Assembly (NCBI RefSeq): GCF_017355365.1
Contig: NZ_JADIJR010000002.1
Coordinates: forward strand, 124,001 to 188,000
DNA from: Microbacterium sp. SD291
GTDB lineage: Bacteria; Actinomycetota; Actinomycetes; Actinomycetales; Microbacteriaceae
Reading direction: 5' to 3'
Length of the DNA: 64,000 nucleotides
The position numbers and the translations under genes were made by a program. This document shows, piece after piece, positions 37,487 to 62,361 of this stretch. Position 1 is the stretch's first letter. Each line of letters opens with the position of its first letter. The notes beneath the pieces were generated by a model. That model saw only the letters and a list, made by a program, of their open reading frames with translations, searched no databases and was not told the origin of the DNA.

Positions 37487-38023
37487 GTGACTGAGCCACT
37501 GCACTCCACCGACGCCCCGCTGCACTCTTCGGCTGCTCCGCTGGTCGGCGTCGTGATGGGGTCCGACTCCGACTGGCGCGTGATGAGCGACGCCTCTCAG
37601 GCGCTCACCGACTTCGGCATCGCCCACGAGGTCGAGGTGGTGTCCGCGCACCGCACCCCTGACAAGCTCATGTCCTACGCGCGCGAGGCGCGTGGTCGCG
37701 GCATCCGCGTGATCATCGCCGGAGCAGGGGGAGCCGCGCACCTGCCGGGGATGCTCGCGTCGATGACGGCGCTTCCCGTGATCGGCGTGCCGGTGCCGCT
37801 GGCGTATCTCGACGGCATGGACTCGCTGCTCTCGATCGTGCAGATGCCGGGCGGGATCCCCGTCGCGACCGTATCGATCGGCGGAGCGAAGAACGCCGGC
37901 ATCCTCGCCGCGCGGATACTCGGGACCTCCGACGATGCGCTCGCCGACCGTGTCGAGGCCTACGCGCGCGACCTGGAGGCCCAGGTCGAGGAGAAGAACG
38001 ATCGGCTGAAGGAGTCGCTGTGA
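37487..38023 (+). CDS. purE: N5-carboxyaminoimidazole ribonucleotide mutase PurE
   Basis: The 178-residue class I PurE converts N5-CAIR to CAIR in purine synthesis. Hallmarks are [11 protein letters not shown] (substrate phosphate loop), [12 protein letters not shown] (the catalytic SAHRTP His), [13 protein letters not shown] and [20 protein letters not shown]. The GTG start follows TACCCT by six bases. This gives a ~17-residue N-terminal extension before the core and rules out the longer open frame. The stop overlaps the LCP gene by four bases (GTGA), so the two are translationally coupled although functionally unrelated. The same neighbourhood occurs in other actinobacteria. Confidence 0.95.
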
Positions 38024-39465
38024 CCCTCGCCGCGCCGCGCTTCGCGGCGCGCCCGGTGATCGAGACCAAGCCGCTGCGGCATCCCGATGTCGCGGATGCG
38101 GGGGTCATGGCCAAGCGCGGCTGGTGGCTGGTGGTGCTCAACGTCCTCGTGCCGGGTTCGGCGCAGGTGCTCGCCGGCAGCCGGAGGCTCGGCCGGTTCG
38201 GACTCGGGGCGACCCTGCTGGGCTGGTTCCTCGTGATCGTGGCGGGTGGCCTGGCGCTGTTCGCGCAGCCCGTGTTCCTGTGGATGACGGTCGGGGCCGG
38301 ATGGTTCTCATCTGTGGTGCTCACGGTCGTGCAGGCTCTGCTGATCGGCTATCTGGTGCTCTGGGCGGTGCTCACGTTCGACGCGCTGCGGCTCGTCCGC
38401 CTCGTGAAGGTCGGAGGCCTGTCGAAGCTCGCGATCCCGGTCGTCGCCCTGCTCCTGCTCGGCCTGATCGGCAGCGGCACCGCGTACGCGGCGACCTCCG
38501 TCGGCACCGCGCGCAGCACGATCAGCACGATCTTCGGCCAGAGCGGCCCGAGCGTCGAGCCGAGCGAGGGCTACTACAACATCCTCCTCCTCGGTGCCGA
38601 CAGCGGCGAAGGCCGTGACTCCATGCGGTTCGACAGCATCTCCGTCGTGTCCGTGAACGCCACAACGGGCGCCGTGACGATCACCGGGATCCCGCGCGAG
38701 CTGCCGAACGCGCCGTTCAGCGAAGGCAGCCCGATGCAGGAGCTGTATCCGAACGGATTCGAGGGGCAGAGCTCCGACACGTGCGGCTGGAACGCCTGGA
38801 TGAATCACGTCCGCAACGCGGCCGAGAGCTGCCGGGAGGATGCGGGATCGGCGCTGTACCCGGACGCGGCGGCGCACGGCTCCGAACCGGGAATCGAGGC
38901 GACCAAGGATGCCGCGGAGGGCGTGCTCGGCATCAAGATCCCGTACTACGTGTTCGTCGACATGCACGGCTTCGCGGCGCTCGTCGACGCCCTCGGCGGG
39001 GTGGACATCAACGTCACCGAGCGCCTGCCGAAGGGCGGGGGGCCTGCGTACGACGGGCAGCCCGTCGACGACTGGGCGTTCGGCTGGATCGAGCCGGGCC
39101 AGCAGACCATGGACGGCGAGACCGCACAGTGGTACGCCCGCTCGCGGTACACCACGAGCGACTGGGATCGCATGAAGCGCCAGCGCGAGCTGCAGGAGGC
39201 GATCCTGGCGCAGTTCACGCCGCAGACCGTGCTCACCCGCTTCAACGAGGTCGCATCGGCCGGGACGGCGCTGATCAGTACCGACCTCCCGCAGGACAAG
39301 CTGCCGGAGTTCTTCGACCTGATGACGAAGGCGAAGAAGCAGACGGTCGCGACCATCGAGCTGACGCCCGAGTTCGGAGTCGACGAGCACGAGCCCGGCT
39401 ACGCGCACATCCACGACCTGATCGAGCAGACGCTGCACCCGCCGACCGAGACGCCGGCGCCGTGA
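38020..39465 (+). CDS. LytR-CpsA-Psr (LCP) family glycopolymer ligase
   Basis: The 481-residue protein has four N-terminal hydrophobic segments (about 31-50, 60-85, 90-118 and 131-156) instead of the usual one, then an extracytoplasmic LCP domain from ~184. Key motifs are [19 protein letters not shown] (Arg/Asp pyrophosphate-binding site), [28 protein letters not shown] and [23 protein letters not shown] enzymes transfer lipid-linked glycopolymers such as teichoic acids or arabinogalactan onto peptidoglycan. Its place between the TagF-like genes and the glycan export locus makes it the likely ligase for one of these polymers. Confidence 0.9.
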
Positions 39466-39534: not shown

Positions 39535-40608
39535 ATGAGTGCTCGGCTGCGTGTTGTCCTGGATCAGCTGATGCACGTCGTCGACGCGGATCAGGCCTCT
39601 GCGGCGCTCGATCTGGCCGCGGGGCTTGTCGCGACGGCGCCATCACGGTGCGAGGTCGAGGCGATCGTGCCTGCGGGTGCGTCGCCTTCGATGCCGGGTC
39701 TCGCAGACGTGCGCAGGCTGTCGCTGGCGCGGCGAGAGCTGGCCGCCGCCTGGCAGCTGGGCCTCGTCTCGGGTGTCGGCGGCGGCATGATCCACTCGGC
39801 GACGCTGATGGCGCCACTCGTGCGCCACGACAAGGTCCACGATCACGACCAGACGACGGTCACGCTGTGGACCCTGCGGCACTGGGAGGCGCCGGACGGG
39901 CTGTCCAAGTCCGCCGTGGCCTGGCACCGGGGGATGCTGCGCCGCGCCGTGAAGCATGCGGACGCGGTCGTCGTCCCCTCGCACGCCATGGCGGAGCGGC
40001 TGGCAGAGCTCACGAAGCTGGGGGAGCGCATCCGGGTGATCGCCGGGGCGGCGCCCGAGGGATTCGCCGTGCCGCTGGACGCTGTGGCCAGGCGACGGGC
40101 GCTCTCGCTCCCTGCGCGTTATGTCGTGCTGACCGGTGATGCGGGGGAGCTCGAAGCGGGATTCCGCGGCGCGCTCGCGGCCGGGGCGGATGCCGTGGTC
40201 CTCGACGCCCCGGAGGGCACGGAGCCGGGTCTCGCGGAGATCGCCTCCGCCGCGGGGCTGCCGGAGTCTCGCGCGCACGTGAGGGGCGTGCTGTCTGCGC
40301 AGGACAGGGCGGCCGTGCTGTCCGGCGCCGCCGTCTTCGTGGCGACGAGCGCTCTCCACGAGTGGCCGTGGCGTGCGGTCGAGGCGATGACGCTGGGTGT
40401 CCCGGTGGTGGCGGTCGACGGCGGTGTGCACCGCGATGTGATCGCCGACGGCGGGATGCTGGCGGCCGCGGAAGACATCCCGGATGCCGTCGCCGAGGCG
40501 GCGGGCGCGGGGGCGCGGCGGCTCAGCGTGCTCGGAGCCGACCGCTCGAGGGCGTTCTCGTGGACGGGTTCGGCCGAGCGCGTGTGGGGGCTGCACGCCG
40601 ACCTGTGA
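39535..40608 (+). CDS. Glycosyltransferase family 4-like protein
   Basis: A 357-residue GT-B type glycosyltransferase. The N-terminal half has GVGGGMIHSATLMAP and VTLWTLRHWEAPDGLS, with DAVVVPSHAMAERL at the domain boundary. The C-terminal nucleotide-binding half shows RYVVLTGDAGELEAG, ALHEWPWRAVEAMTLGVPVVAVDGGVH and IADGGMLAAAEDIPDAV, the 'E-x7-E'-like GT4 donor-binding region. It would add a hexose from a nucleotide donor to a cytoplasmic, probably lipid-linked, glycan. The donor cannot be read from the sequence. TACCCT six bases before the ATG gives the start. It lies between the LCP ligase and the secreted FG-GAP protein. Confidence 0.82.
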   Translation: MSARLRVVLDQLMHVVDADQASAALDLAAGLVATAPSRCEVEAIVPAGASPSMPGLADVRRLSLARRELAAAWQLGLVSGVGGGMIHSATLMAPLVRHDKVHDHDQTTVTLWTLRHWEAPDGLSKSAVAWHRGMLRRAVKHADAVVVPSHAMAERLAELTKLGERIRVIAGAAPEGFAVPLDAVARRRALSLPARYVVLTGDAGELEAGFRGALAAGADAVVLDAPEGTEPGLAEIASAAGLPESRAHVRGVLSAQDRAAVLSGAAVFVATSALHEWPWRAVEAMTLGVPVVAVDGGVHRDVIADGGMLAAAEDIPDAVAEAAGAGARRLSVLGADRSRAFSWTGSAERVWGLHADL

Positions 40609-40697
40609 GCCGCTGAGCAGTGGCTGTGTCTTTGCGCGACACGCCGTTTCTGTGCGGGCGATATTCAGCAACAGTGGCATCATCCTGCAACTTCAGT

Positions 40698-40703
40698 CAC
40701 ACT
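40698..40703 (+). promoter_or_regulatory. -10 box before the FG-GAP gene, aimed at an out-of-frame ATG
   Basis: CACACT followed by six bases and an ATG at 40710. That ATG is in a different frame from the long open frame, which begins at the GTG at 40720. The seven-C run at 40722-40728 separates the two frames. Confidence 0.45.
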
Positions 40704-40719
40704 GGTCACATGTCTCGTC

Positions 40720-43164
40720 GTGCCCCCCCGCTCTCGAAACGCCCAGAGGCTGGCCCGTCTCCTCCTGACCTACGCCGCCGTCGCGGCGCTCGTGGTCGGT
40801 GTCTTCGCGCCGATTCCTGGCGCATCGGCCTCTGCTTCTGTCGCCGGTGGTGCCCGCATCGCGGCCGATCCCGCGGCCTCCGGGATCGTGAAGACGACGC
40901 TCGCCGGCTTCAGCGCGGGCAACATCATCAGCGACGCGGTGTTCACGAACAAGAGCACGATGACCGAGGCGCAGATCCAGACCTTCTTCAACAGCAAGGT
41001 CCCGAAGTGCCTGGGCGGCTCCGACAAGTACGGCCCCATCGTCTGTCTCAAGGACTTCAAGACCACTTCGGTCAACCGGCCGGCTGACGCCTACTGCAGC
41101 GGCTACACGGGCGCTGCCGACGAGTCGGCGGCGCGGATCATCCACCGGGTGGCGCAGGCCTGCAACATCAACCCGCAGGTGCTGATCGTCATGCTGCAGA
41201 AGGAGCAGGGCCTGGTCACCCACACGTGGCCGAGCGCCCCTCGGTACAGCGCCGCCCTCGGACAAGGATGTCCCGATGGCGGAGTCCCGTGCGATCCGAA
41301 CTACGTCGGCTTCTTCCATCAGATCTACGGCGCCGCTCGCCAGATGCAGATCTACATGGAAGGCAGGTGGTTCACCTATTACGCACCGGGCAAGACCTGG
41401 AACATCAGGTACAACCCCGAGATCAGCTGCGGCTCCGCCCCCGTGTACGTGGCCAACAAGGCGACTGCCGCGCTGTTCTACTACACCCCCTACCAGCCGA
41501 ATGCAGCCGCTCTCAGAGCGGGTTACGGTGAGGGCGACGCCTGCTCGGCGTACGGCAACCGGAACTTCTACAACTACTTCACTGATTGGTTCGGGTCTAC
41601 GCAGGCTGTCGCGTCCGCTGCGCCTTCCCTGACATCTGTCAACACCTCTTCGTTCGTCGCCGGAGTGGACGCGGCGGGCAAGATCTGGGGCTATCCGTTC
41701 AACAAGGGAACGTGGGGTGCTCGTACGCAGATCGGCGCGACCGAAGTCGGCCTGAAGGCACTGCATGGGCTCGGAGACCTCGATGGGGACGGCAACCGCG
41801 ACTTCGTAGCGGTGGGTCCGACCAATCGAATCTCGATCCTGAACGGGACAGGCACGACGAACCTCAGCGCGGGCGCCGAGGTGTCGCCTGCCGGTGGAGA
41901 CGTTGTGCTCACAGCCGCCGCCGGTGACTTCTCCGGTGACGGTGTTCCGGATCTCTTCAGCACTAACGCCGCAGGCCAGCTCCTGCTCTGGCGTGGCGAT
42001 GACCGCGGCGGATTCCGCGCACCGCTGATCATCGGCACCGGCTGGAGCGGGATGAACATGCTCATCGGCGGGACTGACTTCAACGGCGACGGTGCCACAG
42101 ACCTCGTCGCCCGTGACCGTGCCGGATACCTTCGGCTCTACCTGGGAACGGGCCTCGGGAAATGGAAGGGCACCCAGCAGATCGGGATCGGATGGTCCCA
42201 GTTCGCCAAGGTCTTCACCCCGGGTGACTTCAACGGCGACGGTCGCGCCGATCTGCTCGCGGAGACCTCCACAGGAGTCCTGTCGCTCTATCCGGGTGCA
42301 GGAGACGGCTATCTGCGCTCCGGCACGAAGGTCGGTGTCGGCTGGAACATCCTCGCCGGCACCGGTGCAGCGGGGGCTGCCGCGGCGAAGCCACGTGCGT
42401 TCCTGCCCGGCGTGGGGGATCTCGACCGGTCGCAGGGCCGTGATGTCGTGGCCGTGACCGGGGCGGGCGCCCTCATGGCCTATGGCGGCAACGGAAGCGG
42501 CGGCTGGGCGGCCGCACGTACCGTCGGGCAGGGGTGGGCGTCCGGTGACGTGCTGCTGTCTCTCGGCGACTTCAGCGGCGACGGGAATGCCGACCTCGGA
42601 CGGGTCAACGGTGCGGGTGATCTCCTCATGCTCCCCGGAAACGGAGCGGGCGGTTATGTCCAGCCGGTCGTCATCGGCCGGCAATGGGGTGACTTCGCCT
42701 GGCTCGTCGGCGGCATCGACTTCGATGGCGACCGCAGGGTCGACGTGTTGGCGCGAGCCTCCGACGGCAGGCTTCTGCTGTACCGCGGTGACGGCGAAGG
42801 CGGCTGGTCGGAGACCGGCATTCAGATTGGCAAGGGATGGGGTTCGTTCGTCTCGGCCACGAACGGCGGTGACTTCGACGGCGACGGCCGGGCGGATCTC
42901 GTCGCCCGGCACGGAGACGGGACCCTCTGGCTGTACGCTTCATCGGGCGACGGCGCATGGCTGAGCTCTCACGTGATCGGTTGGGGCTGGAGCGGCATGC
43001 GGGACATCTTCAGCCCGGGGGACTTCGACGGTGACGGCAGGATCGACGTGCTGGCGCGCGATCAGTCCGGTGTGATCTGGCTGTATCGCGGCGACGGCAA
43101 GGGCTCGTGGCGTGCGGTCTCGGCCATCGGACGCGGGTGGGCCAGCATGCTCAGCATTGGCTGA
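40720..43164 (+). CDS. Secreted FG-GAP/VCBS repeat protein with lysozyme-like N-terminal domain
   Basis: The 814-residue exported protein starts with a basic n-region and a hydrophobic signal segment (LLLTYAAVAALVVGVFAPIP). A Cys-containing domain follows (~45-290) of a type common in actinobacterial surface proteins. Its helix AARIIHRVAQACNINP and VLIVMLQKEQGLV place a Glu (residue 162) as in soluble lytic transglycosylases. Nine FG-GAP/VCBS blades follow (~353-814), most carrying a calcium-binding D-x-(D/N)-G-D-G motif, such as DFNGDGRADLL and DFDGDGRIDVL; together they probably form a beta-propeller. It may bind or cut wall glycan. The GTG start is uncertain because the promoter-linked ATG at 40710 is out of frame. 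Confidence 0.85.
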   Translation: MPPRSRNAQRLARLLLTYAAVAALVVGVFAPIPGASASASVAGGARIAADPAASGIVKTTLAGFSAGNIISDAVFTNKSTMTEAQIQTFFNSKVPKCLGGSDKYGPIVCLKDFKTTSVNRPADAYCSGYTGAADESAARIIHRVAQACNINPQVLIVMLQKEQGLVTHTWPSAPRYSAALGQGCPDGGVPCDPNYVGFFHQIYGAARQMQIYMEGRWFTYYAPGKTWNIRYNPEISCGSAPVYVANKATAALFYYTPYQPNAAALRAGYGEGDACSAYGNRNFYNYFTDWFGSTQAVASAAPSLTSVNTSSFVAGVDAAGKIWGYPFNKGTWGARTQIGATEVGLKALHGLGDLDGDGNRDFVAVGPTNRISILNGTGTTNLSAGAEVSPAGGDVVLTAAAGDFSGDGVPDLFSTNAAGQLLLWRGDDRGGFRAPLIIGTGWSGMNMLIGGTDFNGDGATDLVARDRAGYLRLYLGTGLGKWKGTQQIGIGWSQFAKVFTPGDFNGDGRADLLAETSTGVLSLYPGAGDGYLRSGTKVGVGWNILAGTGAAGAAAAKPRAFLPGVGDLDRSQGRDVVAVTGAGALMAYGGNGSGGWAAARTVGQGWASGDVLLSLGDFSGDGNADLGRVNGAGDLLMLPGNGAGGYVQPVVIGRQWGDFAWLVGGIDFDGDRRVDVLARASDGRLLLYRGDGEGGWSETGIQIGKGWGSFVSATNGGDFDGDGRADLVARHGDGTLWLYASSGDGAWLSSHVIGWGWSGMRDIFSPGDFDGDGRIDVLARDQSGVIWLYRGDGKGSWRAVSAIGRGWASMLSIG

Positions 43165-43265: not shown

Positions 43266-44180
43266 ATGAGTGGGCCCGTGACAGACACCCGTGAGCTTTT
43301 CGCCGGCGTCCCGCGCTCGGAGTTCGACACCCCCGGCACGAGTCGGGGACTGATCGACGTCGTGCGCTGGCGCTATCTCCTGTACCTCCTCGTGAAGACC
43401 GGGGTCACCACTCGGTACCGGAATTCGGTTCTTGGCTGGACCTGGTCCTACGTGAGACCGGGAGCTCAGTTTCTCGTCTTCTGGATCGTGCTCGGACTCT
43501 TCCTGAGCCTGAACCGCGACATTCAGAACTATCCGGTCTACCTGTTCTCCGGCATCGTGGTGATCAACCTCTTCTCGGAGGCGTTCAAGAACGCGACGAC
43601 GTCGATCGTGAACAACGCGGCACTGGTCAGGAAGGTCTTCCTTCCCCGTCAGCTGTTCGCGGTGTCCGCGGTGCTCGTCGCCTTCATTCATTTCCTCCCG
43701 CAGCTCGCGCTGCTGCTCATCGTCTGTCTCTTCATGGGATGGCTCACGAGCATCACGATCCTTTCGATTCTCGCGGTGCTCGCGGGTATCGTCATCGTCT
43801 CGCTGTTCGCGCTCGGGATCGGGCTCTTCTTCGGTGCTCTCAACGTGCGGTTCCGTGACGCCGAGAACATCGTCGAGCTTCTTCTCCTGCTCGCGACGTG
43901 GGCGTCGCCGGTGCTCTACGCGTGGACGATGGTGCAGGACGCGATGGTCAAGCTCGGCTGGCCCGAGTGGCTGACCAATCTCTATCTCCTGAACCCGATC
44001 ACCCAGGGCGTCGAGCTGTTCCATTACGCGTTCTGGCGGCCGATCACGTCCACGACGATGGCGTTGCCGCCGGAACTCGCGTGGAACACCCTGTGGACCT
44101 TCGCGATCGCGGTCGGCACGCTCCTGCTCGGGCAGCTCGTGTTCCGGCGCCTCGAGGGAAGGTTCGCGCAAGACCTATGA
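43266..44180 (+). CDS. Polysaccharide/teichoic-acid ABC exporter, permease (TagG/Wzm-type), system 1
   Basis: A 304-residue ABC-2 permease with six predicted membrane helices. The typical amphipathic N-terminal lead is LLYLLVKTGVTTRYRNSVLGWTWSYVRPG, the helix that lies on the membrane in TagG/Wzm proteins. ASPVLYAWTMVQ and YLLNPITQGVELFHYAFW follow near the C-terminus. With the ATPase encoded next, it would flip a lipid-linked glycan or teichoic acid across the membrane. The two genes overlap by four bases. A GTG at 43278 is an alternative start, but I see no better signal there. The gene directly follows the secreted FG-GAP protein. Confidence 0.88.
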   Translation: MSGPVTDTRELFAGVPRSEFDTPGTSRGLIDVVRWRYLLYLLVKTGVTTRYRNSVLGWTWSYVRPGAQFLVFWIVLGLFLSLNRDIQNYPVYLFSGIVVINLFSEAFKNATTSIVNNAALVRKVFLPRQLFAVSAVLVAFIHFLPQLALLLIVCLFMGWLTSITILSILAVLAGIVIVSLFALGIGLFFGALNVRFRDAENIVELLLLLATWASPVLYAWTMVQDAMVKLGWPEWLTNLYLLNPITQGVELFHYAFWRPITSTTMALPPELAWNTLWTFAIAVGTLLLGQLVFRRLEGRFAQDL

Positions 44181-44914
44181 GCACTGCAACCCAGATGCGT
44201 CCGAGCATCATCGTCGAGGGTGTCCGCAAGATGTTCACGCTCAACCACGCACTGTCCTTCAAGGACACCGTGGTCGCCTGGATCCGGCGGCGGAAAACCT
44301 CAAGCACTTTCGAGGCTCTCAAGGGGCTCGACCTCGTGATCAACGAGGGTGAATCCGTGGCGATCCTCGGGCTCAACGGCTCAGGGAAGTCGACCCTCCT
44401 CAAGCTCATCTCGGGAGTGATGGAGCCCGATGACGGGCGCGTCCTGACCCGCGGCAGGGTCGCCGGTCTCATCGAGGTCGGTGCGGGCTTCCACCCTGAG
44501 CTCTCCGGACGGGAAAACGTCTTCCTGAACGCCGCGATCCTCGGCATGCAGCGCAGGGAAATCGAGGAGCGCTACGACGAGATCGTCGCCTTCAGTGAGA
44601 TCGAGCCCTTCATCGACCAGGAGGTGAAGCATTACTCCTCTGGCATGTTCATGCGGCTCGCCTTCTCGGTCGCGATCCACGTCGAGCTCGACGTGCTCCT
44701 CGTCGATGAGATCCTCTCGGTCGGTGACGCTCCGTTCCGTGAGAAGTGCCGGCTCAAGTTCGAAGAGCTCATTGCGCACAAGAAAACCCTGGTCGTGGTC
44801 AGCCATGACATGGAAATGGTGCGCGGGCTCTGCACGCGAGGCGTGGTGATCAACAAGGGCGAGCTCGTCTACGACGGCGAGATCGAAGGCGCGATCGCGC
44901 TGGTCGACGAATGA
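44177..44914 (+). CDS. Polysaccharide/teichoic-acid ABC exporter, ATPase (TagH/Wzt-type), system 1
   Basis: A 245-residue ATPase of the TagH/Wzt (ABCH-like) group. The N-terminal FEALKGLDLVINEGESVAIL leads to Walker A GLNGSGKSTLL, then GLIEVGAGFHPELSGRENVF (the characteristic Q-loop region of this family), signature HYSSGMFMRLAFSVA, Walker B DVLLVDEILSVGD and switch His VVSHDM. It ends straight after the ATPase core, so it lacks the C-terminal carbohydrate-binding domain of O-antigen Wzt. This fits an exporter that does not read a chain-terminal modification. It is coupled to the permease before it and the membrane protein after it (ATGA overlaps). Confidence 0.9.
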   Translation: MSTATQMRPSIIVEGVRKMFTLNHALSFKDTVVAWIRRRKTSSTFEALKGLDLVINEGESVAILGLNGSGKSTLLKLISGVMEPDDGRVLTRGRVAGLIEVGAGFHPELSGRENVFLNAAILGMQRREIEERYDEIVAFSEIEPFIDQEVKHYSSGMFMRLAFSVAIHVELDVLLVDEILSVGDAPFREKCRLKFEELIAHKKTLVVVSHDMEMVRGLCTRGVVINKGELVYDGEIEGAIALVDE

Positions 44915-46845
44915 TCTCGGAGTGGATCGCACACTCCGGCTCACTCGTGATCGCCTTGCTGGTGGTCTTCGGCCCGGGCATGCTGATCGGCGCCGCGATC
45001 CGGCTGCGCGGGCTCGCGCTCTGGGCGTTCGCCCCGGTGTCCGGTGTCGCAGTGGCCGGTTCGCTCGCCTTGGTCTATCCACTACTCGGCATCCGCTGGA
45101 ATGCGGCGACCTTCGGAGCTGGCGTCGCAGTCCTCGCCGTCCTCGCACTCGCGCTCGCGAGTTGGACTTTCCCTGCTGTCTCCCGCCGCACCTGGCGTGG
45201 CGCAGCGATGCTGGGGGTCGCGCTGGTCGGCGGTGGGCTTCTCATCGCGTTGCGTCTGGTCTTCTACATCGGCCTGCCCGACGCGATCTCGCAGACCAAC
45301 GACGCGGTGTTCCACCTGAACGCGCTGCGGTATATCGAGGAGACAGGTTCGGCGTCATCGCTGACACTCACCGGCGTGCTCGGCTCCCGCACCTTCTACC
45401 CCGGCGGCTGGCACGCACTGGTCTCCGTGATCGCGAATGCCAACGGGGGTGATGTCCCCCTCGCCGTGAACATGACGTCAGTCGTCATCGCGGCTGTCGT
45501 GTGGCCGGCCGGTCTGGCCTGGTTCGCCCGTGCGATATCCGGCGACCCCGCCCTCGCAGCCGTGACCGCTGCCCTCTCCGGAGCGATGCTCCACTTCCCG
45601 ATGCTCATGCTGGAGTGGGGCGTGCTCTACCCGAACGCGCTGGCGCTGGCATTGCTTCCGGCGTCCCTCGCCGTCGTATGGAACGGTACAGCGGGATCCG
45701 GAGAACCCGGCAGATGGAAGGGGATCATCCGGATCTCTGCGTTCGTCTTCCTGATACTCGCCGCACTCGGCATGGCGCAGCCTGTTGTGCTCCTCACTTG
45801 GATCCTGCTGATCGGCGTGCGGATCGTCCTCCTCGTCGTCGACGAATCGGCCCAGCCGCGAGGTCGCAGACTCATCGCCATCGTCATCGTAGTCGCCGCC
45901 GTGGCTGTCGCCTGGGTCGCGATGGCGAAGGTCGCCGGCGCTGCGCACTGGGAGCCGTACGGAAATTGGATGGAGGCGGTCAAGGAGCTCCTGCTGACCT
46001 CCCAGGTGGATCTTCCGCTGTCTCCCGCGATAACGGTCCTCGCCCTTCTCGGTGCGATCGTCGCCTGGCGGCGGGGCGGCTCTTTGCGGCAGATCACGAT
46101 CGCCTGGGCGGCCCTGGCACTCCTCATGTTCGCGGCGACCTCCGTGGCGAACCCGCTGGTGCGCCGGTGGCTGCTCGGCCCCTGGTACGCCGACCCCTAT
46201 CGCATCGCTGCGACGCTTCCGCTCGTGATGCTCCCGCTCGCCGCTCTGGGGCTCGTCTGGAGCGTGCGTCGGCTCGTCGCGATCTCGCGTCGCGGCGCCC
46301 GGCCCCGCGTCGAGGGCACTCTTGCGACGGCTGTCGCCCTGACTGCCGGGGCGGCGGCACTCGCTCTCTGGCCGGTACTGATGATGCCGTTGGCACCCGA
46401 TCACGAGGTCGACGTCCAGTCGCGATATACGTCGAACCACGATTCCTATCTGTCCCCCGACGAGCGGCACCTTCTGCGCAGACTCGACGAGCTGGTGGAG
46501 CCGGGAGCGCTCATCATCGGCAACCCCTCGACCGGCACGGGCTTCGGATACGCACTGAGCGGGGCGAATGTGTATCCCAGGAACTGGTCGCACCCTCGTG
46601 GCGACGCATGGGAGATCCTCGGCGAGCATCTCAGGGACGTGTCGAGGCAACCGCTCGTGTGCGAGGCGCTGGAACAGCTCGGCAGCCCGGAGTACGTGCT
46701 GGACTTCGGGCGTGGCGAGATGACGGCGGGACGGTTCGTCCTGCTCGGGATGACAGACTTTGACGCTGCCGACGGGTTCGTGCTCGTTGCCGAGGAGGGC
46801 GACGCGAAGCTCTGGCGGATCACAGCTTGCGACGCTGGAAGTTGA
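44911..46845 (+). CDS. DUF6541-type polytopic membrane protein (GT-C-like)
   Basis: The 644-residue protein has a dozen or more predicted membrane helices and a C-terminal extracytoplasmic domain (~500-644). The loop after the third or fourth helix reads NQTNDAVFHLNALRYI, followed by FYPGGWHALVSVIA, the conserved DUF6541 region. Acidic residues in the first outer loop are typical of GT-C glycosyltransferases, which use polyprenyl-phosphate sugars outside the membrane. It overlaps the exporter ATPase gene by four bases, so it is in that operon. With the convergent DUF2304 and GT2 genes it would form a three-part glycan-modification system. GT-C activity is inference. Confidence 0.75.
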   Translation: MISEWIAHSGSLVIALLVVFGPGMLIGAAIRLRGLALWAFAPVSGVAVAGSLALVYPLLGIRWNAATFGAGVAVLAVLALALASWTFPAVSRRTWRGAAMLGVALVGGGLLIALRLVFYIGLPDAISQTNDAVFHLNALRYIEETGSASSLTLTGVLGSRTFYPGGWHALVSVIANANGGDVPLAVNMTSVVIAAVVWPAGLAWFARAISGDPALAAVTAALSGAMLHFPMLMLEWGVLYPNALALALLPASLAVVWNGTAGSGEPGRWKGIIRISAFVFLILAALGMAQPVVLLTWILLIGVRIVLLVVDESAQPRGRRLIAIVIVVAAVAVAWVAMAKVAGAAHWEPYGNWMEAVKELLLTSQVDLPLSPAITVLALLGAIVAWRRGGSLRQITIAWAALALLMFAATSVANPLVRRWLLGPWYADPYRIAATLPLVMLPLAALGLVWSVRRLVAISRRGARPRVEGTLATAVALTAGAAALALWPVLMMPLAPDHEVDVQSRYTSNHDSYLSPDERHLLRRLDELVEPGALIIGNPSTGTGFGYALSGANVYPRNWSHPRGDAWEILGEHLRDVSRQPLVCEALEQLGSPEYVLDFGRGEMTAGRFVLLGMTDFDAADGFVLVAEEGDAKLWRITACDAGS

Positions 46846-48062: not shown

Positions 48063-48674
48063 GTGAGCAACAACGCCAGCGTGCGGATCGTCGATTCCGC
48101 GGATGTCTCGCCCGATGCGATGATCGGCTCCGGCAGCTCGATCTGGCACCTGGCCCAGGTCCGCGAAGGCGCACGGCTCGGCGAGAACTGCATCATCGGA
48201 CGAGGCGCGTACGTCGGCACGGGTGTGGAGATGGGGGACAACTGCAAGGTGCAGAACTATGCTCTCGTCTACGAACCGGCGAAACTGGCGGACGGCGTCT
48301 TCATCGGCCCAGCGGTCGTGCTGACCAACGACACCTATCCGCGAGCGATCAATGCTGACGGCACGATCAAGAGCGCCCACGACTGGGAGCCCGTCGGGGT
48401 GACCATCGAACGGGGCGCGGCGATCGGCGCGCGATCCACGTGCGTGGCACCCGTCACGATCGGTGCCTGGGCGACGGTCGCCGCCGGCGCCGTCGTCGTC
48501 AAGGACGTGCCCCCGTATGCGCTGGTCGCCGGAGTCCCCGCCCGCCGTATCGGCTGGGTCGGCGAGTCGGGCGTGCCGCTAGTCGCGGGTGAAAACGACA
48601 ACATATGGGTGTGCCCGACGACGGGCGACCGTTACTTCGAGACCGCCGGAACACTGACCAAGGAGACCGTGTGA
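48063..48674 (+). CDS. Sugar N-acetyltransferase, left-handed beta-helix (WbpD-like)
   Basis: A 203-residue hexapeptide-repeat acyltransferase. Imperfect (L/I/V)-G-x4 repeats run through the protein (IGSGSSIWHLAQVREGARLG, TIGAWATVAAGAVV) and end in VPPYALVAGVPARRIGWVG, as in WbpD/WlbB. A final Cys/Thr-rich tail (IWVCPTTGDRYFE) is typical of these enzymes. By analogy it would acetylate the 3-amino group of UDP-GlcNAc(3NH2)A with acetyl-CoA. The following two genes encode the matching aminotransferase and dehydrogenase, which strengthens this reading. The GTG start has a ribosome binding site and overlaps no upstream gene; the stop overlaps the next start. Confidence 0.87.
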   Translation: MSNNASVRIVDSADVSPDAMIGSGSSIWHLAQVREGARLGENCIIGRGAYVGTGVEMGDNCKVQNYALVYEPAKLADGVFIGPAVVLTNDTYPRAINADGTIKSAHDWEPVGVTIERGAAIGARSTCVAPVTIGAWATVAAGAVVVKDVPPYALVAGVPARRIGWVGESGVPLVAGENDNIWVCPTTGDRYFETAGTLTKETV

Positions 48675-49768
48675 GCGAGTTCATTCCCCCCGCCAAGCCC
48701 ATCATCGGCGACGAGGAGCGCGAAGCCGTCGATCGCGTGATGCGCAGCGGGATGATCGCACAGGGGCCGGAGGTCGCGTCGTTCGAGCAGGAGTTCTCAG
48801 CGCACTTCGTGCCCGGGCGGCCGTCCGTCGCGGTGAACTCCGGCACCGCCGGGCTCCACCTGGGCCTTCTCGCGGCCGGCGTGGGTGCGGGCGACGAGGT
48901 CATCGTTCCCTCCTTCACGTTCGCGGCGACCGGGAATTCGGTCGCACTGACCGGCGGCACCCCGGTGTTCGTCGACATCGAGCCGGAGACGTTCACCCTG
49001 GACCCGGAGGCAGTGGCCGCCGCGATCACACCGCGGACCAAGGGGATACTGCCGGTGCACCTGTACGGGCACCCGGCGCGGATGCGCGAGCTGGAAGCTC
49101 TCGCGGCCGAACGCGGCATCGCGCTGTACGAGGACGCGGCCCAGGCACACGGCGCCTCGCTGGACGGACGCCCGGTCGGCTCGTTCGGCGAGTTCGCGAT
49201 GTTCAGCCTGTATCCGACGAAGAACATGACCAGCGGCGAGGGCGGCATGGTCACCACGGCGACCGACGAGATCGCTCGCCGCGTGAAGCTGCTGCGCAAT
49301 CAGGGCATGGAACGTCAGTACGAGAATGAGGTCATCGGATTCAACGCGCGGATGACCGACATCCACGCCGCGATCGGCCGCGTCCAGCTGACCAAGGTCG
49401 ACGCATGGACGACGACCCGCCAGCGGAACGCAGCTTTCCTGGACGCCAACCTGCAGGGCGTCGTCGTGCCACCGGTCGCCGAGGGCGCTGTGCACGTCTA
49501 TCACCAGTACACGATCCGCGTGCCGGAGAACCGCGACGGCTTCGTCGGCGCGCTCAAGGATGAGCACAACGTCGGCGCGGGCGTCTACTACCCGATCCCG
49601 AACCATCGCCTGCCGTCGCTGACGCACTTCGCGCCCGGCCTGGACCTGCCCGAGACCGAGCGCGCCGCGCGCGAGGTCGTCTCGCTGCCTGTGCACCCCT
49701 CGCTGAGCCAGGATGACCTTGAGCGGATCGTCGCCGCAGTCAATACCGTCGCGAAGGCGGGTGCCTGA
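48671..49768 (+). CDS. DegT/DnrJ/EryC1-family sugar aminotransferase (WbpE-like)
   Basis: A 365-residue PLP-dependent sugar aminotransferase. Landmarks are FIPPAKPIIGDEEREAVDRV at the start, AVNSGTAGLHLGLLAAGVG, VIVPSFTFAATGNSV, ALYEDAAQAHGAS, the PLP lysine Lys184 in SLYPTKNMTSGEGG, and IGFNARMTDIHAAIGRVQL. WbpE-type members move an amino group from glutamate to the 3-keto sugar made by the WbpB-type dehydrogenase. The neighbours are exactly these partners. The GTG at 48671 overlaps the acetyltransferase stop, with AAGGAG just upstream. Confidence 0.9.
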   Translation: MSEFIPPAKPIIGDEEREAVDRVMRSGMIAQGPEVASFEQEFSAHFVPGRPSVAVNSGTAGLHLGLLAAGVGAGDEVIVPSFTFAATGNSVALTGGTPVFVDIEPETFTLDPEAVAAAITPRTKGILPVHLYGHPARMRELEALAAERGIALYEDAAQAHGASLDGRPVGSFGEFAMFSLYPTKNMTSGEGGMVTTATDEIARRVKLLRNQGMERQYENEVIGFNARMTDIHAAIGRVQLTKVDAWTTTRQRNAAFLDANLQGVVVPPVAEGAVHVYHQYTIRVPENRDGFVGALKDEHNVGAGVYYPIPNHRLPSLTHFAPGLDLPETERAAREVVSLPVHPSLSQDDLERIVAAVNTVAKAGA

Positions 49769-50763
49769 TGACGCTGCGGGCAGGTCTGCTCGGTGTCGGC
49801 ATGATGGGTCGCCATCATGCCCGCGTCCTGCGCGAGATCGACGGGGTGGATCTCGTCGCGATCGCCGACCCTGGCGGGGACCCGCACGGTGTCGCCGGAG
49901 ACCTGGACGTCCTCCCCGACATCGACTCGCTCATCGAATCGGGCATCGACATCGCGGTCGTCGCTGTGCCGACCCGTTTCCATGAAGACGCCGCGCTGAA
50001 GTTGGCCGCGGCCGGCGTGCATACGCTCGTCGAGAAGCCGATCGCGCACAGCGTCGAAGCAGGACAGCGGATGGTCGATGCCTTTGCCGCAGCGGGCCTC
50101 GTCGGCGCGGTCGGCCACATCGAACGGTTCAATCCCGCGCTCCAGGAGCTGCGGCGGCGGATCGAGGCCGACGAACTGGGGGCCGTCTATCAGGTCGTCA
50201 CCCGCAGGCAGGGACCGTTCCCTTCCCGCATCGCGGACGTCGGTGTCGCGAAGGACCTCGCGTCCCACGACGTGGACCTCACCGCCTGGGTGGTGCAGTC
50301 CGGCTACGAGACCGTGTTCGCGCAAACCGCGTTCAAGAGCGGCCGTGAGCACGAGGACATGATCACGATCACCGGACGCACCGCGTCCGGGGTGATCGTG
50401 AACAACATCGTGAACTGGCTGTCCCCGATGAAGGAGCGCCTCACGGTCGTCACGGGTGAGAAAGGCGCGTTCGTCGCCGACACCTCCACCGGCGACCTCA
50501 CCTTCTATGCCAACGGCACGATCCCGCTCGAATGGGAATCGGTCTCCAGCTTCCGCGGCGTCTCGGAAGGCAACGTCACACGGTATGCATTCGCGAAGCG
50601 AGAGCCGCTTCGCGTCGAGCATGAGGCGTTCCGCGACGCCGTTCTCGGCAAGCGGACCGACCTCGTCACGATGGAACAGGGTCAGCGCACGCTCGTCGTC
50701 GTCGAAGCCGCCCTCGAATCGGCGCGCGAGGGCATCACCCAGCGGCTAGACGCCACGCTGTGA
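49768..50763 (+). CDS. Gfo/Idh/MocA-family sugar 3-dehydrogenase (WbpB-like)
   Basis: A 331-residue NAD(P)-dependent oxidoreductase with the Rossmann motif GLLGVGMMGRHHARVLREI and the dinucleotide/substrate motif LVEKPIAHS (Lys90). A C-terminal alpha/beta domain contains GHIERFNPALQEL and DVGVAKDLASHDVDL, whose His is the family's usual catalytic base. Beside acetyltransferase and aminotransferase genes, WbpB/WlbA is the best match; it oxidises C3 of UDP-GlcNAcA. The start codon shares one base with the previous stop (TGATG). A different nucleotide-sugar substrate cannot be excluded from sequence alone. Confidence 0.87.
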   Translation: MTLRAGLLGVGMMGRHHARVLREIDGVDLVAIADPGGDPHGVAGDLDVLPDIDSLIESGIDIAVVAVPTRFHEDAALKLAAAGVHTLVEKPIAHSVEAGQRMVDAFAAAGLVGAVGHIERFNPALQELRRRIEADELGAVYQVVTRRQGPFPSRIADVGVAKDLASHDVDLTAWVVQSGYETVFAQTAFKSGREHEDMITITGRTASGVIVNNIVNWLSPMKERLTVVTGEKGAFVADTSTGDLTFYANGTIPLEWESVSSFRGVSEGNVTRYAFAKREPLRVEHEAFRDAVLGKRTDLVTMEQGQRTLVVVEAALESAREGITQRLDATL

Positions 50764-50791
50764 GTCGACGTTCGCAGGCGGGGACCACAGC

Positions 50792-52570
50792 ATGAAGGCG
50801 CTGTGGGTCACGCTGAAGGAGCTCCTCGAGCTGCTGCCCGGTGATGCGCGGAGCTTTCTCATCCGCTACTCGCTGTCTTCTTCGGCGTTGGCGTTGCTCG
50901 ACATCCTTGCGCTCGGGCTGCTTGCGCTGATGCTGGCACCGCTGGCGTCGAACCAGCAGGTGCGTCTGCCCCTGCTCGGTGAGATTGCTGCCGAGAACGT
51001 CGTATGGGTGCTGGTGACGGCGTGCGCGCTGATGGTGATCAAGTCGCTCATCGCGCTCGTTCAACAATGGTACGTGACTCGGCGAATGGCCCATTTCGAA
51101 CTCGCGATCGGTGATCGGCTGTTCAGCGCCTACATCCGAGCACCCTGGCTCGAGCGTATGAAGCGGAACTCCGCCGAGCTCGTTCGCATGGCGGATGTCG
51201 GCATCGCGAACACCACGTCAGGCCTGCTGCTGCCGGTCGCCTCGCTGCCCTCTCAGGTCGTCACATTCTGCTCGGTGCTCTTCGTCCTGTTCGCGGCCCA
51301 GCCGCTGATCGCGGTCGCAACGGTGCTCTATCTCGGGGTGGTCGCGGGGCTGCTCTACGGCTGGGTGTCTCGCCGTGCGGTCAAGAACGGAAGGATGAAC
51401 CGGGACTTCTCATTCCGCACCGCGACACTGATGACCGAGATGGTGCAGGCGCTTAAGGAGATCACGCTTCGAGACAAGGCGGGGGAGGTCGCTGCGCTCG
51501 TGAATCAGAACCGCTCCGTCGCTGTGAAGGCTCGAGCCACGATCGGGTTCCTCGGGGCGATCCCGAAGTTCGTGATCGATTCTGCCGTGATCATCGGATT
51601 CCTGATCATCGGCGCCGTCGGCTATGCAACGGGCGGTCTCCCCGGCGCGTTCTCGTCCATCGCGCTGTTCGGAATCGCGAGTTTCCGCATGGTGCCCTCG
51701 ATGCTGCAGTTCCAGGGAGTGATGACCTCCACGGCCTCCACGCTGCCGCACGCACGCGCCGTCATTCGCGACATCAAGGCAGCCGAAGGCTACATCTCCG
51801 CAGCCGAGGTGATCGGAGACGGCGAGCTGAACGAGCATCCCGTGGAACTCGTGCTGGACAACGTCGCATTCACGTATCCCGGTGCTGAGACGCCGGCGCT
51901 CTCCGGCGTGAGTCTCAAGATTCCGCTCGGCACCCATGTCGCCTTCGTCGGTTCTTCCGGTGCCGGGAAGTCGACGATGGTCGATCTGATACTCGGATTG
52001 CTGACTCCGACTGCCGGGGAGATCCGCCTGGACGACACCGATCTCTCAGAGGTGCTCGGCGCATGGCGTCGCCGAGTCGGCTACGTCCCTCAGGACGTGG
52101 CATTGTTCGACGGAACGGTCGGCCAGAACGTGGCGCTGAGCTGGAGCGAGGAGTACTCGCGCGAGGACGCCTGGCGTGCGGTCAAGGGCGCACAGCTGGA
52201 CACGGTCGTACGTGCCCGGCCGGGTGAACTCGACGCGCCGATCGGCGAGCGCGGCCTGGCGCTCTCCGGTGGCCAGCGGCAGCGACTCGGGATCGCACGA
52301 GCCCTGTACACGGACCCGGTGGTCCTGGTCATGGACGAGGCCACGTCGGCGCTCGACACCCAGACCGAGGAAGCTGTGACATCCGCCATCAGCCGGCTGC
52401 GCGGCTCGGTGACGGTGATCACCGTCGCGCATCGACTCTCGACGATCCGGGAGGCGGACATCGTGTGCTTCTTCGCGAACGGGCGGATCGCTGCACAGGG
52501 GACGTTCGACGAGGTCGTGGCGGCAGAGCCGGAGTTCGCCGTTCAGGCACGTCTGGCCGGACTGGCTTGA
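50792..52570 (+). CDS. ABC transporter with fused permease and ATPase (PglK/MsbA-type lipid-linked oligosaccharide flippase)
   Basis: A 592-residue half-transporter. The six-helix membrane domain spans ~1-320, followed by the ATPase domain. Walker A is GSSGAGKST (~387-395), the Q-loop VGYVPQDVALFDGT, the signature LSGGQRQRLGIARAL, Walker B VVLVMDEATSALD and the switch VITVAHRLS. It works as a homodimer. Length, the RIREAD-like short linker and its place after the diacetamido-sugar genes point to a PglK-like flippase for a lipid-linked oligosaccharide rather than to drug efflux. It starts 28 bases after the dehydrogenase gene with GCGGGGA as ribosome binding site, and is probably the last gene of that operon. 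Confidence 0.85.
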   Translation: MKALWVTLKELLELLPGDARSFLIRYSLSSSALALLDILALGLLALMLAPLASNQQVRLPLLGEIAAENVVWVLVTACALMVIKSLIALVQQWYVTRRMAHFELAIGDRLFSAYIRAPWLERMKRNSAELVRMADVGIANTTSGLLLPVASLPSQVVTFCSVLFVLFAAQPLIAVATVLYLGVVAGLLYGWVSRRAVKNGRMNRDFSFRTATLMTEMVQALKEITLRDKAGEVAALVNQNRSVAVKARATIGFLGAIPKFVIDSAVIIGFLIIGAVGYATGGLPGAFSSIALFGIASFRMVPSMLQFQGVMTSTASTLPHARAVIRDIKAAEGYISAAEVIGDGELNEHPVELVLDNVAFTYPGAETPALSGVSLKIPLGTHVAFVGSSGAGKSTMVDLILGLLTPTAGEIRLDDTDLSEVLGAWRRRVGYVPQDVALFDGTVGQNVALSWSEEYSREDAWRAVKGAQLDTVVRARPGELDAPIGERGLALSGGQRQRLGIARALYTDPVVLVMDEATSALDTQTEEAVTSAISRLRGSVTVITVAHRLSTIREADIVCFFANGRIAAQGTFDEVVAAEPEFAVQARLAGLA

Positions 52571-52594
52571 CGCAACTCGCCTCCGGAGGTCGAC

Positions 52595-53569: not shown

Positions 53570-53575
53570 TCCTCC

Positions 53576-53581
53576 ATGTTA
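53576..53581 (-). promoter_or_regulatory. -10 box of the GT1/4-like gene at 52595
   Basis: TAACAT on the minus strand, six bases before the ATG ending at 53569. It is divergent from the box at 53616. Confidence 0.45.
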
Positions 53582-53615
53582 GGTCCGCGTCGATGGGCGG
53601 GCCGCGACACGGCGC

Positions 53616-53621
53616 TAAGCT
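53616..53621 (+). promoter_or_regulatory. -10 box, leaderless promoter of the GT4-GT2 operon
   Basis: TAAGCT followed by six bases and the GTG at 53628. Confidence 0.5.
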
Positions 53622-53627
53622 GGATCG

Positions 53628-57079: not shown

Positions 57080-57085
57080 CACTCG

Positions 57086-57091: not shown

Positions 57092-57128
57092 CCGCACCAC
57101 CGGTGAGCTGCCGCACAGGACGCCCCCC

Positions 57129-57134
57129 TAGACT
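57129..57134 (+). promoter_or_regulatory. -10 box, leaderless promoter of the nucleotide-sugar dehydrogenase gene
   Basis: TAGACT followed by seven bases and the ATG at 57142. Confidence 0.5.
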
Positions 57135-57141
57135 AGAACCC

Positions 57142-58437
57142 ATGCGCATCGCCGTCGTGGCCCTCGGAAAGATCGGGCTCCCTCTCGCCGTCCAGTTCGC
57201 CGCATCCGGTCATGAGGTGATCGGAGTGGACGTGAATCCCACGGCAGTCGAGACGATCAATGCCGGGCGGGAGCCTTTCCCGGGGGAGGCGCACCTCCAG
57301 GCGAAGCTCTCCGAACTCATTCCGTCCGGCCGCCTTCGCGCGACGACCGACTACGCAGAGGCCATTCCCGGCGCTGACGCAGTCGTGCTGGTCGTTCCCG
57401 TGTTCGTCGACGATGTGACGTGGGAGCCGGACTTCAAGTACATGGACTCCGCGACCCGCGCGCTGGCCCAACACCTCACTCCCGGCACTCTTGTCTCCTA
57501 CGAGACCACGCTGCCGGTGGGCACAACTCGGAATCGCTGGAAGCCGATGCTCGAGGAGGGATCCGGGCTCGTCGAAGGCAAGGACTTCCACCTCGCCTAT
57601 TCGCCCGAGCGGGTTCTCACCGGCCGAGTCTTCGCAGACCTCCGGAAATACCCCAAGCTTGTGGGCGCACTCTCGGATGAGGGTAATCGGCGCGCCCGTG
57701 AGTTCTACGAGGCGGTGCTGCAGTTCGACGAGCGCCCCGACCTGCCGCGTCCCAACGGAGTCTGGGACCTGGGCACCACGGAGGCCTCGGAGATGGCCAA
57801 ACTTGCCGAGACCACGTACCGTGATGTGAACATCGGCCTCGCGAACCAGTTCGGACTGTTCGCGGCCGCGCACGGCATCGACGTGTACAAGGTGATCGAG
57901 GCGTGCAACTCGCAGCCGTACAGCCACATCCACCGACCCGGCATCGCGGTCGGCGGACACTGCATCCCGATCTATCCTCGGCTGTACCTGTCTACGGATC
58001 CGGACGCCGATATCGTGCGTGTCGCCCGTCAGCTCAACGCCTCGATGCCCGAGCGTCTCGTCGCGCAAGCGGAGGGACTGCTGGGCGATCTCAGCGGTCT
58101 GCGGGCGGTCGTCCTCGGCGCGGCGTATCGCGGAGGAGTGAAGGAGACGGCGTTCTCCGGCGTCTTCCCTACGGTGAAGGCGCTCCGCGACCGCGGCGCA
58201 GACGTGTTCGTGCACGATCCGCTGTACACGGATGATGAGCTGCGTGCTCTGGGATTCGAGCCCTACGCCATCGGAGGGGAAGCCGATCTGGCGGTCCTGC
58301 AGACGGACCACGCCGCTTATCGTGAGCTCTCGCCTGCCGACATCCCCGGCATCAGGCTGCTCGTCGACGGACGTGCAGCGACGGATGCCGCAGTCTGGGC
58401 CGGGACTCCGCGCATGGTGGTCGGCGCTGCCGCCTGA
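57142..58437 (+). CDS. UDP-N-acetyl-hexosamine 6-dehydrogenase (WbpA/WecC-type)
   Basis: A 431-residue NAD-dependent UDP-sugar dehydrogenase that makes a uronic acid in two oxidation steps. Motifs are IAVVALGKIGLPLAVQFAASG (NAD-binding), FVDDVTWEPDF, YETTLPVGTTR, LAYSPERVLTG, TTEASEMAKLAETTYRDVNI and the catalytic Cys274 in IAVGGHCIPIYPR. A C-terminal nucleotide-binding domain follows (VLGAAYRGGVKETAFS). The PYSH-x-HRPG region before the Cys is typical of enzymes using UDP-N-acetyl-hexosamines rather than UDP-glucose. With the WbpB/E/D-like genes it would give UDP-GlcNAcA for the diacetamido sugar. UDP-ManNAcA (WecC) is the alternative, but no 2-epimerase gene is in the window. Confidence 0.87.
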   Translation: MRIAVVALGKIGLPLAVQFAASGHEVIGVDVNPTAVETINAGREPFPGEAHLQAKLSELIPSGRLRATTDYAEAIPGADAVVLVVPVFVDDVTWEPDFKYMDSATRALAQHLTPGTLVSYETTLPVGTTRNRWKPMLEEGSGLVEGKDFHLAYSPERVLTGRVFADLRKYPKLVGALSDEGNRRAREFYEAVLQFDERPDLPRPNGVWDLGTTEASEMAKLAETTYRDVNIGLANQFGLFAAAHGIDVYKVIEACNSQPYSHIHRPGIAVGGHCIPIYPRLYLSTDPDADIVRVARQLNASMPERLVAQAEGLLGDLSGLRAVVLGAAYRGGVKETAFSGVFPTVKALRDRGADVFVHDPLYTDDELRALGFEPYAIGGEADLAVLQTDHAAYRELSPADIPGIRLLVDGRAATDAAVWAGTPRMVVGAAA

Positions 58438-61088: not shown

Positions 61089-62351
<1,263 letters not shown>

Positions 62352-62361
62352 ACTCGACACC

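Follow-up and report, generated by a model that had tools for sequence, protein, structure and literature searches.

The open reading frame at 40720-43164 lies in a 64,000-nucleotide window of the Microbacterium sp. SD291 genome (contig NZ_JADIJR010000002.1, positions 124,001 to 188,000; all coordinates below refer to this window). It runs on the plus strand from a called GTG start and encodes a protein of 814 amino acids. The protein contains both peptides quoted in an earlier, sequence-only reading of this DNA, and VLIVMLQKEQGLV is the peptide that includes Glu162. The gene is present in a single copy in its own genome. Pfam places FG-GAP repeats in the C-terminal part of the protein (FG-GAP_3, PF13517, 145.4 bits against a cut-off of 26.9; FG-GAP, PF01839, 64.7 bits against 22.1) and matched no family to residues 1-300; we refer to the two parts as the tail and the head. 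The sequence-only reading had placed the gene between a glycosyltransferase and a glycan exporter, and Pfam found both, the latter as an ATP-binding cassette (ABC) type 2 permease (Table 1). Further upstream is a LytR-CpsA-Psr (LCP) protein; proteins of this family ligate glycopolymers to the cell wall. Among 80 relatives of the gene (L002-L081), we detected purK at 55 loci, purE at 60, LCP at 63, the glycosyltransferase at 65, the ABC permease at 40, and DUF6541 at 24. We find that the head follows the upstream genes and the tail type follows the downstream glycan cassette, with the switch point inside the gene, at the boundary between head and tail.

Table 1 Positions of the features discussed in the text, in window coordinates.
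Feature	Position	Strand	Evidence
LytR-CpsA-Psr (LCP) protein, constant side	38020..39465	+	Pfam 78.8 bits; 63/80 loci
Group-1 glycosyltransferase, constant side, upstream	39535..40608	+	Pfam; 65/80 loci
GTCAC-N4-GTCAC direct repeat, MtrA-box-like	40696..40709	+	Immediately 5' of the conserved ATG
Conserved ATG (40710) and run of seven C (40723-40729)	40710..40729	+	Called start is GTG 40720
Wall hydrolase-like protein, 814 aa	40720..43164	+	Open reading frame, Pfam
Putative Sec-type signal peptide, approximate	40720..40833	+	By eye: hydrophobic stretch, then ASA
Predicted lysozyme-superfamily domain, residues 55-298 (modelled 55-300)	40882..41613	+	AlphaFold2, structural re-alignment
Glu162, candidate catalytic acid, helix end	41203..41205	+	Invariance, model, GH73 profile alignments
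First FG-GAP propeller, read as five blades	41653..42369	+	Strand pattern; loops 353, 403, 453, 503
Second FG-GAP propeller, read as five blades	42400..43161	+	Tachylectin-2 alignment; loops 567 (degenerate), 617, 667, 718, 768
ABC-2 glycan exporter permease, variable side, downstream	43266..44180	+	Pfam 52.6 bits
ABC exporter ATPase, TagH/Wzt-like	44177..44914	+	Best NCBIfam: teichoic acid/galactan export ATPases, all below cut-off
DUF6541 membrane protein, variable side	44911..46845	+	Pfam 468.6 bits
Hexapeptide-type sugar acetyltransferase, variable side	48063..48674	+	NCBIfam NeuD-like 82.5 bits, below cut-off 160.8
DegT-type sugar aminotransferase	48605..49768	+	Pfam 406 bits
Gfo/Idh sugar oxidoreductase	49768..50763	+	Pfam; best NCBIfam UDP-GlcNAc 3-dehydrogenase, below cut-off
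Nucleotide-sugar dehydrogenase (uronic acid maker)	57103..58437	+	TIGR03026 300.6 bits, cut-off 189.8

The tails of 81 genes fell into seven classes with 23 (LGFP), 15, 14 (FG-GAP), 13, 10 (CWB2), 4, and 2 members; the FG-GAP and CWB2 tails are classes 2 and 4. To compare orthologous loci, we retained those with the glycosyltransferase at most 1.7 kb upstream (59 loci) and then those with at least 2.5 kb downstream (50 loci, window included). Across these 50 loci, tail class was correlated with shared downstream genes when head identity was held constant (partial Mantel r 0.343, 0/5000 permutations), and among pairs with head identity of at least 0.8, downstream genes were shared in 70 of 80 same-class pairs compared with 82 of 301 different-class pairs. 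The upstream controls purE, LCP, and glycosyltransferase (48, 48, and 50 loci) tracked head identity instead (r 0.76-0.83) and were unrelated to tail class (partial r -0.05 to 0.05). Individual neighbours gave the same picture: an ABC permease stood within 600 bp downstream at 12 of 14 FG-GAP and 8 of 9 CWB2 loci (20/23), compared with 4 of 7 class 1 loci, where it was only 50-56% identical, and 0 of 20 loci of classes 0, 3, and 5. DUF6541 lay within 3 kb at 20 of the 23 FG-GAP and CWB2 loci and at 0 of 27 others, and the acetyltransferase at 19 of 22 and 0 of 27, respectively (window left out; about 6 kb downstream covered). Class 3 tails were accompanied by another neighbour gene (9/10 compared with 1/40 of the others) and LGFP tails by yet another (5/7 compared with 1/43). 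The DegT gene was weakened as a cassette marker, as all seven class 0 loci have homologues of 31-36% identity. At the finest scale, L006 and L015 have heads that are 98.7% identical and carry an LGFP and a CWB2 tail, respectively, and a quick tree of the heads (50 rows, 18 of 47 inner branches open) implied at least 26 tail changes.

To characterize what is being exchanged, we scanned the 73 complete tails of the 80 relatives, omitting seven that were cut. Pfam matched 18 to LGFP, 13 to FG-GAP_3, 10 to CW_binding_2 (CWB2), three to SH3_3, and two to Tachylectin, with weaker or odd matches to EccB (two) and sugar epimerase families (one). The larger named classes, LGFP included, are wall- or sugar-binding types. 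Class 3 tails consist of GWAIDPDT repeats of about 105 residues each (L009:8889-10505 and L033:8751-10031); a similar GWAIDPDT-type repeat was seen by eye in L257, from a distant group.

Functionally, the switch is most simply explained by a need for the tail to fit the glycan that the downstream genes make, and by analogy with EpaU of Enterococcus the tail probably recognizes this neighbouring wall glycan. PMC13343894 describes EpaU of Enterococcus faecalis as an autolysin whose gene belongs to a variable wall-polysaccharide locus and whose tail, which varies between strains, binds that polysaccharide. Both systems have an autolysin-type gene with a variable tail at a variable wall-glycan locus, and the tail here would bind likewise. 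They differ in that EpaU is an N-acetylmuramidase with OB-like repeats, whereas the present proteins occur in Actinomycetota and have a head from the lysozyme superfamily, of no named family, joined to tails of the FG-GAP, LGFP, CWB2, or unnamed types.

In a competing account, the tail has no part in recognizing the neighbouring glycan and travels with the cassette only because a recombination breakpoint happens to fall on the domain boundary. Linkage alone, with the tail hitch-hiking, would yield the same co-inheritance, and several observations tell for this account and against a tail that recognizes its neighbour's product. Similar cassettes accompany both FG-GAP and CWB2 tails, and tail and cassette are thus not matched one to one; three loci break the rule, L025 and L035 (FG-GAP tail) and L069 (CWB2 tail), which lack the ABC/DUF6541 cassette. 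The class 5 tails match a non-binding family (L003 to EccB of the type VII secretion system, 33.8 bits, cut-off 27), one of the 73 tails matches sugar epimerases, and seven tails of classes 1 and 3 scanned singly (L044, L011, L050, L068, L028, L009, and L033) matched no Pfam family. The supported branches of the head tree give three independent tail/cassette pairs, none contrary, which is too few for a sign test; the tree-based pair test was underpowered throughout, with 3, 4, and 3 supported pairs. On the other side stand the binding types of the larger named tail classes, the precedent of EpaU, whose tail recognizes the glycan produced by the variable locus that encodes it (PMC13343894), and the finding that even among FG-GAP and CWB2 loci the subtype of the permease goes with tail class (partial r 0.367, 0/2000, 20 loci), with lower values for the ATPase (0.218, 20/2000, 20 loci) and DUF6541 (0.196, 49/2000, 19 loci). 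Considering this evidence, we regard a chance breakpoint as rather unlikely, and a tail matched to the glycan of its cassette remains our preferred account.

The FG-GAP tail of the window protein contains nine DxDGDG-type loops starting at residues 353, 403, 453, 503, 567, 617, 667, 718, and 768, with a spacing of 50 or 51 residues and one step of 64; the fifth calcium loop (567) is degenerate, and two more pattern matches, at 625 and 658, do not keep this register and were left out. A model of residues 297-814 (predicted local distance difference test, pLDDT, 91.8; predicted template modelling score, pTM, 0.88) has 39 strands and one long step. Tachylectin-2 aligned to residues 275-518 of the tail model alone (Z 17.0) and 5c2m to residues 277-518 (Z 17.3), both of which we take to be five-bladed. 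The first half was matched by 9ya3_K (residues 2-277, Z 14.0) and by several PLL-type lectins at Z of about 12, which are presumably seven-bladed. The UmbA4 alignment covers residues 112-518 of the tail model and thus both halves. If the second ring is completed by the last strand and the first by the strand that precedes the long step, as we read the model, the tail probably forms two five-bladed rings, in which nine of ten blades have a calcium loop. The nine loops noticed in the sequence-only reading are thus present, and two rings fit the model better than the single nine-bladed calcium propeller that it had drawn from them.

Sequence and structure searches both led to the same group of lectins. 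The closest PDB sequence to the tail is 8w20_C (8.2e-12 with the single sequence, 1.4e-26 with a profile), and the top Foldseek match is 9oee, UmbA4 with its polymer (1.5e-14), among 811 chains, many of them other propellers, that reach an E value of 0.001. NCBIfam gave only the BP39L lectin, at 33.3 bits and far under the cut-off of 400. The umbrella particle of 8w20 was reportedly modelled with UmbA1 (PMC11062931), and the UmbA proteins are reported to include twelve five-bladed families (PMC13274773). The tail propeller is related to these UmbA lectins of Streptomyces umbrella toxins. The UmbA proteins differ in having a trypsin-like N-terminal domain and targeting other species, whereas the present protein has a lysozyme-like head and its tail probably binds the cell's own wall.

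For the head, an AlphaFold2 model of residues 55-300 was confidently folded (pLDDT 95.1, pTM 0.92), and we re-aligned it with VIA to the 116 chains of Foldseek's own short list. Among the 46 matches listed, the best was LytB (Z 9.5, root-mean-square deviation 3.1 over 141 residues), followed by AtlE (Z 8.5), with the LytB and AtlE chains together spanning Z 8.2-9.5. Further down were a phage tail-tip protein (8.0), other glucosaminidases (8yxn, 6fxp, and 6fxo, 6.3-7.9), and a phage lysin (7.1), and lower still lytic transglycosylases (4.1-6.6) and goose-type lysozymes (5.8-6.0). Going by their titles, and with Tse3 and EtgA included, 44 of the 46 are wall- or chitin-cleaving enzymes; the other two are the phage tail-tip protein and an unrelated NLR. 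These results predict a lysozyme-superfamily fold, and they bear out the lysozyme-like N-terminal domain proposed in the sequence-only reading, albeit with a Foldseek search that on its own was not significant.

Whether the head is nearer to glycoside hydrolase family 73 (GH73, the family of LytB and AtlE; PF01832) or to the lytic transglycosylases that the sequence-only reading had invoked is less clear-cut. A GH23-like lytic transglycosylase or muramidase in place of a glucosaminidase, with the rest of the protein read in the same way, would account for the matches to MltE, MltC, MltF, g-type lysozymes, and a chitinase at Z 4.1-6.6, a range that touches that of 8yxn, 6fxp, and 6fxo, and a single Glu suffices in lytic transglycosylase and muramidase families as well. 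Nearness to GH73 within the superfamily is thus carried by LytB and AtlE, which score above all of these, while the other glucosaminidases lie close to the transglycosylases. The catalytic motif of SLT enzymes is Glu-Ser; in the alignment described below, Glu162 is instead followed by Gln in 72 of 77 rows, and the SLT Pfam model (PF01464) did not match the head domain of the window. We therefore consider a GH23-like head unlikely but still a serious contender, and the likeness to soluble lytic transglycosylases less supported than that to LytB and AtlE. As a first guess from the modelled fold, the head may have N-acetylglucosaminidase-type bond specificity.

Glu162 corresponds to residue 108 of the model, in the last turns of the helix formed by residues 98-109. 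In an alignment of 67 head domains, in which the four most divergent rows share 32-33% identity with the domain of the window, 15 columns were invariant, including Lys161 and Glu162. We extended this alignment by 10 distant rows (four of 14 distant loci were dropped as repeats of the L119-L122 genes) to a total of 77, which include distant groups of the phylum; Glu162 was conserved in 77/77 and Lys161 in 76/77. Of the two outcomes that the sequence-only reading had named as refuting it, an unrelated fold and a Glu162 not conserved among homologues, neither was thus observed. Two further relatives in IMG/VR contigs, L262 and L264, also retain the Glu by eye, outside the 77-row count.

We then compared the head with a GH73 profile of 30 sequences, comprising 28 of the 30 loci of a PF01832 search of the phylum (two with short flanks were dropped) together with phi11 and FlgJ. 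Two other sets were left unused, the four loci of a FlgJ query of IMG/VR (L140-L143) and 80 loci kept of 227 for the phi11 hydrolase, which are 98-100% identical (L146-L225). Five of the eight hhalign comparisons extended past the site, and in all five Glu162 aligned with the catalytic Glu of GH73 (best P 0.0044). According to PMC4633669, a Glu close to a helix end is common to GH73 and related families, and in LytB this acid, Glu585, in the last turns of its helix, is the only one needed; PMC7170848 reports that mutating the GH73 Glu inactivates the enzyme, and describes a YATD motif. This motif was not seen by eye in 19 printed rows of the 67, and the window has N-K-A-T-A at this place. Plain GH73 membership was accordingly rejected, given the missing YATD and a Pfam model that finds no match: the head resembles GH73 in its best structural matches, in the invariant Glu in the last helix turns, and in its modular, exchangeable binding domains, and differs in lacking a PF01832 match and, in the rows read, YATD, with profile similarity that is marginal at best.

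Other results weigh against a reading of the head as a GH73-like enzyme. Foldseek alone gave a best E value of 1.3 in the PDB and 0.15 among viral models, with none at or below 0.001; Z values below 8 may reflect a common arrangement only, and 6 of the 116 chains reach 8. The eight hhalign comparisons ranged from P 0.0044 to 0.16 with probabilities of at most 7.8%, and against the AtlE-like subset alone none was significant (0.085-0.16), the alignment ending before the Glu. In the extreme case, the head could be a pseudo-enzyme that only binds peptidoglycan, making the protein a surface adhesin or lectin. The rows read without YATD are compatible with this, and catalysis by the head is itself something that we infer. 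A pure binding role sits poorly with a Glu that is unchanged in all 77 rows, distant groups of the phylum included, while the adjacent Lys161 has changed in one, with the sufficiency of a single acid in LytB (PMC4633669), and with the domains to which the head is fused. In L120 (655-1902), from another actinobacterial group, a PcsB-type coiled coil precedes the head domain (27.9 bits, cut-off 27), and in the IMG/VR contig L262 (2-970) the head domain, cut at the contig end, is followed by NlpC/P60 (39.8 bits, cut-off 23), which may represent a two-enzyme lysin. Fusions to binding modules, PcsB coiled coil, and NlpC/P60 are architectures of peptidoglycan hydrolases. A pseudo-enzyme thus appears quite improbable, and we favour a head that belongs to an unnamed peptidoglycan-cutting family with Glu162 as the candidate general acid. 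By eye, L119 and L122 look like L120, and the 150-kb IMG/VR contig L264 (3674-4456) encodes a distant relative of 260 amino acids that stands alone and has LQKEQSL.

This family is absent from the libraries that we searched. The head domain of the window had no match in Pfam, nothing meaningful in NCBIfam, and none in PHROGs, consistent with the earlier remark that it has no assigned function; PF01832 was absent from 18 weak Pfam families found over the 67 head-domain members, and searches against PDB sequences with phmmer and hmmsearch returned chance matches only (an antibody at E 0.014, phosphatase 2A at E of at least 0.25). The domain was also described as common in actinobacteria, which holds for the family Microbacteriaceae (139 of 150 genomes, own included) and for part of the order (39 of 149 genomes drawn, 10 of them own-family), and does not hold for the phylum, where it is rare: a profile search recovered it in 14 of 396 genomes (6 own-family, 8 distant) and, in the class of one of the distant genomes, in 9 of 249. 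A tblastn search of phages and plasmids at 1e-5 gave no match to the head domain, and the IMG/VR scan gave three contigs with distant relatives. PF01832 (Glucosaminidase) showed a different distribution, with matches in 48 of 198 cases in the phylum (39 above the cut-off), of which one, below the cut-off, was in the own order; there was none in the own genome or in 39 other genomes searched in the class. The head family may take the place of GH73 in Microbacteriaceae. It is not the only lysozyme-like enzyme of the cell, an idea that we rejected on finding one SLT match in the own genome (25.8 bits, cut-off 21.3). A literature search by title and start of abstract, a scope that most subscription papers fall outside, returned nothing on the head domain or on the tail/cassette switch.

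We propose, with a probability of roughly 0.64, that the gene encodes a secreted autolysin whose propeller tail binds the wall glycan of the cassette, and that the tail is exchanged with the cassette while the head is kept. This reading rests on the computed fold, the invariance of the Glu, the modularity of the tails, and the co-inheritance of tail and cassette; from these we infer secretion, catalysis, bond specificity, ligand, and wall attachment. The N-terminal domain, of the lysozyme superfamily, would cut the glycan strands of peptidoglycan with Glu162 as general acid, and the two five-bladed lectin propellers of the tail would bind the accessory wall glycan made and exported by the downstream cassette, which would retain the enzyme at the wall of its own strain. 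The gene would form the joint between the constant side (purK-purE-LCP-glycosyltransferase) and the variable glycan cassette, such that an exchange of the cassette would carry the tail along and retain the catalytic head. The secreted glycan-cleaving or glycan-binding activity suggested in the sequence-only reading is thereby supported, as a proposal for activity and ligand, and extended by the co-inheritance. To a more specific version, in which the gene is a recombination hinge of actinobacterial wall evolution with the head of an undescribed glycoside hydrolase family, the tail is swapped with the cassette in one piece, and the autolysin of each strain recognizes its own teichuronic-like polymer, we give slightly less than even odds.

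Should the head prove to be a peptidoglycan glycosidase, it would found a new family of the lysozyme superfamily, and this in bacteria in which the GH73 model has no match. The switch between head and tail offers a way to test how wall enzymes are kept in step with a wall sugar that recombination replaces, and the tails could be used as lectins for typing actinobacterial wall glycans.

The genes of the cassette give some indication of its product. PMC13274773 identifies the ligand of UmbA4 as a teichuronic-like polymer of ManNAc3NAcA-GalNAc and attributes the synthesis of ManNAc3NAcA to a dehydrogenase, an aminotransferase/oxidase pair, an N-acetyltransferase, and a 2-epimerase. The cluster at 48063-58437, with its acetyltransferase, a DegT aminotransferase next to a Gfo/Idh oxidoreductase, and a nucleotide-sugar dehydrogenase, resembles the genes expected for a polymer of diacetamido uronic acid; of these enzymes only the dehydrogenase passes its NCBIfam cut-off, and we would guess that the cassette product is similar to a ManNAc3NAcA-type sugar. 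Further downstream, the region 61215-63156 contains a UDP-galactopyranose mutase (above its NCBIfam cut-off) followed by a second ABC permease that is weakly galactan-exporter-like; these genes perhaps serve a galactofuranose-containing glycan.

Lastly, we examined the start of the gene. The ATG that lies at 40710 in the window corresponds to the in-frame start in 12 of 12 relatives examined and is out of frame by one base here, at a run of seven C. The called GTG start may be wrong because of an error in the assembly, or the gene may naturally begin at GTG. Immediately 5' of the conserved ATG stands GTCACACTGGTCAC, which comprises a GTCAC-N4-GTCAC direct repeat. Exact copies of the repeat lie at -29 to +1 of the start at 30 of the 50 orthologous loci, compared with 50 exact sites in all 1,456,169 bases of the scanned loci (both strands, repeats of one gene counted). 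The repeat overlapping the gene start looks like the MtrA box described in PMC4285127, and regulation by MtrA may be envisaged on this basis. Six of the 30 exact repeats in the own genome were read; five lay inside open frames of more than 300 amino acids, and no regulated wall gene was identified among the six. The reversed-pattern control gave two sites in the same genome, which encodes one MtrA (380.3 bits, cut-off 300).

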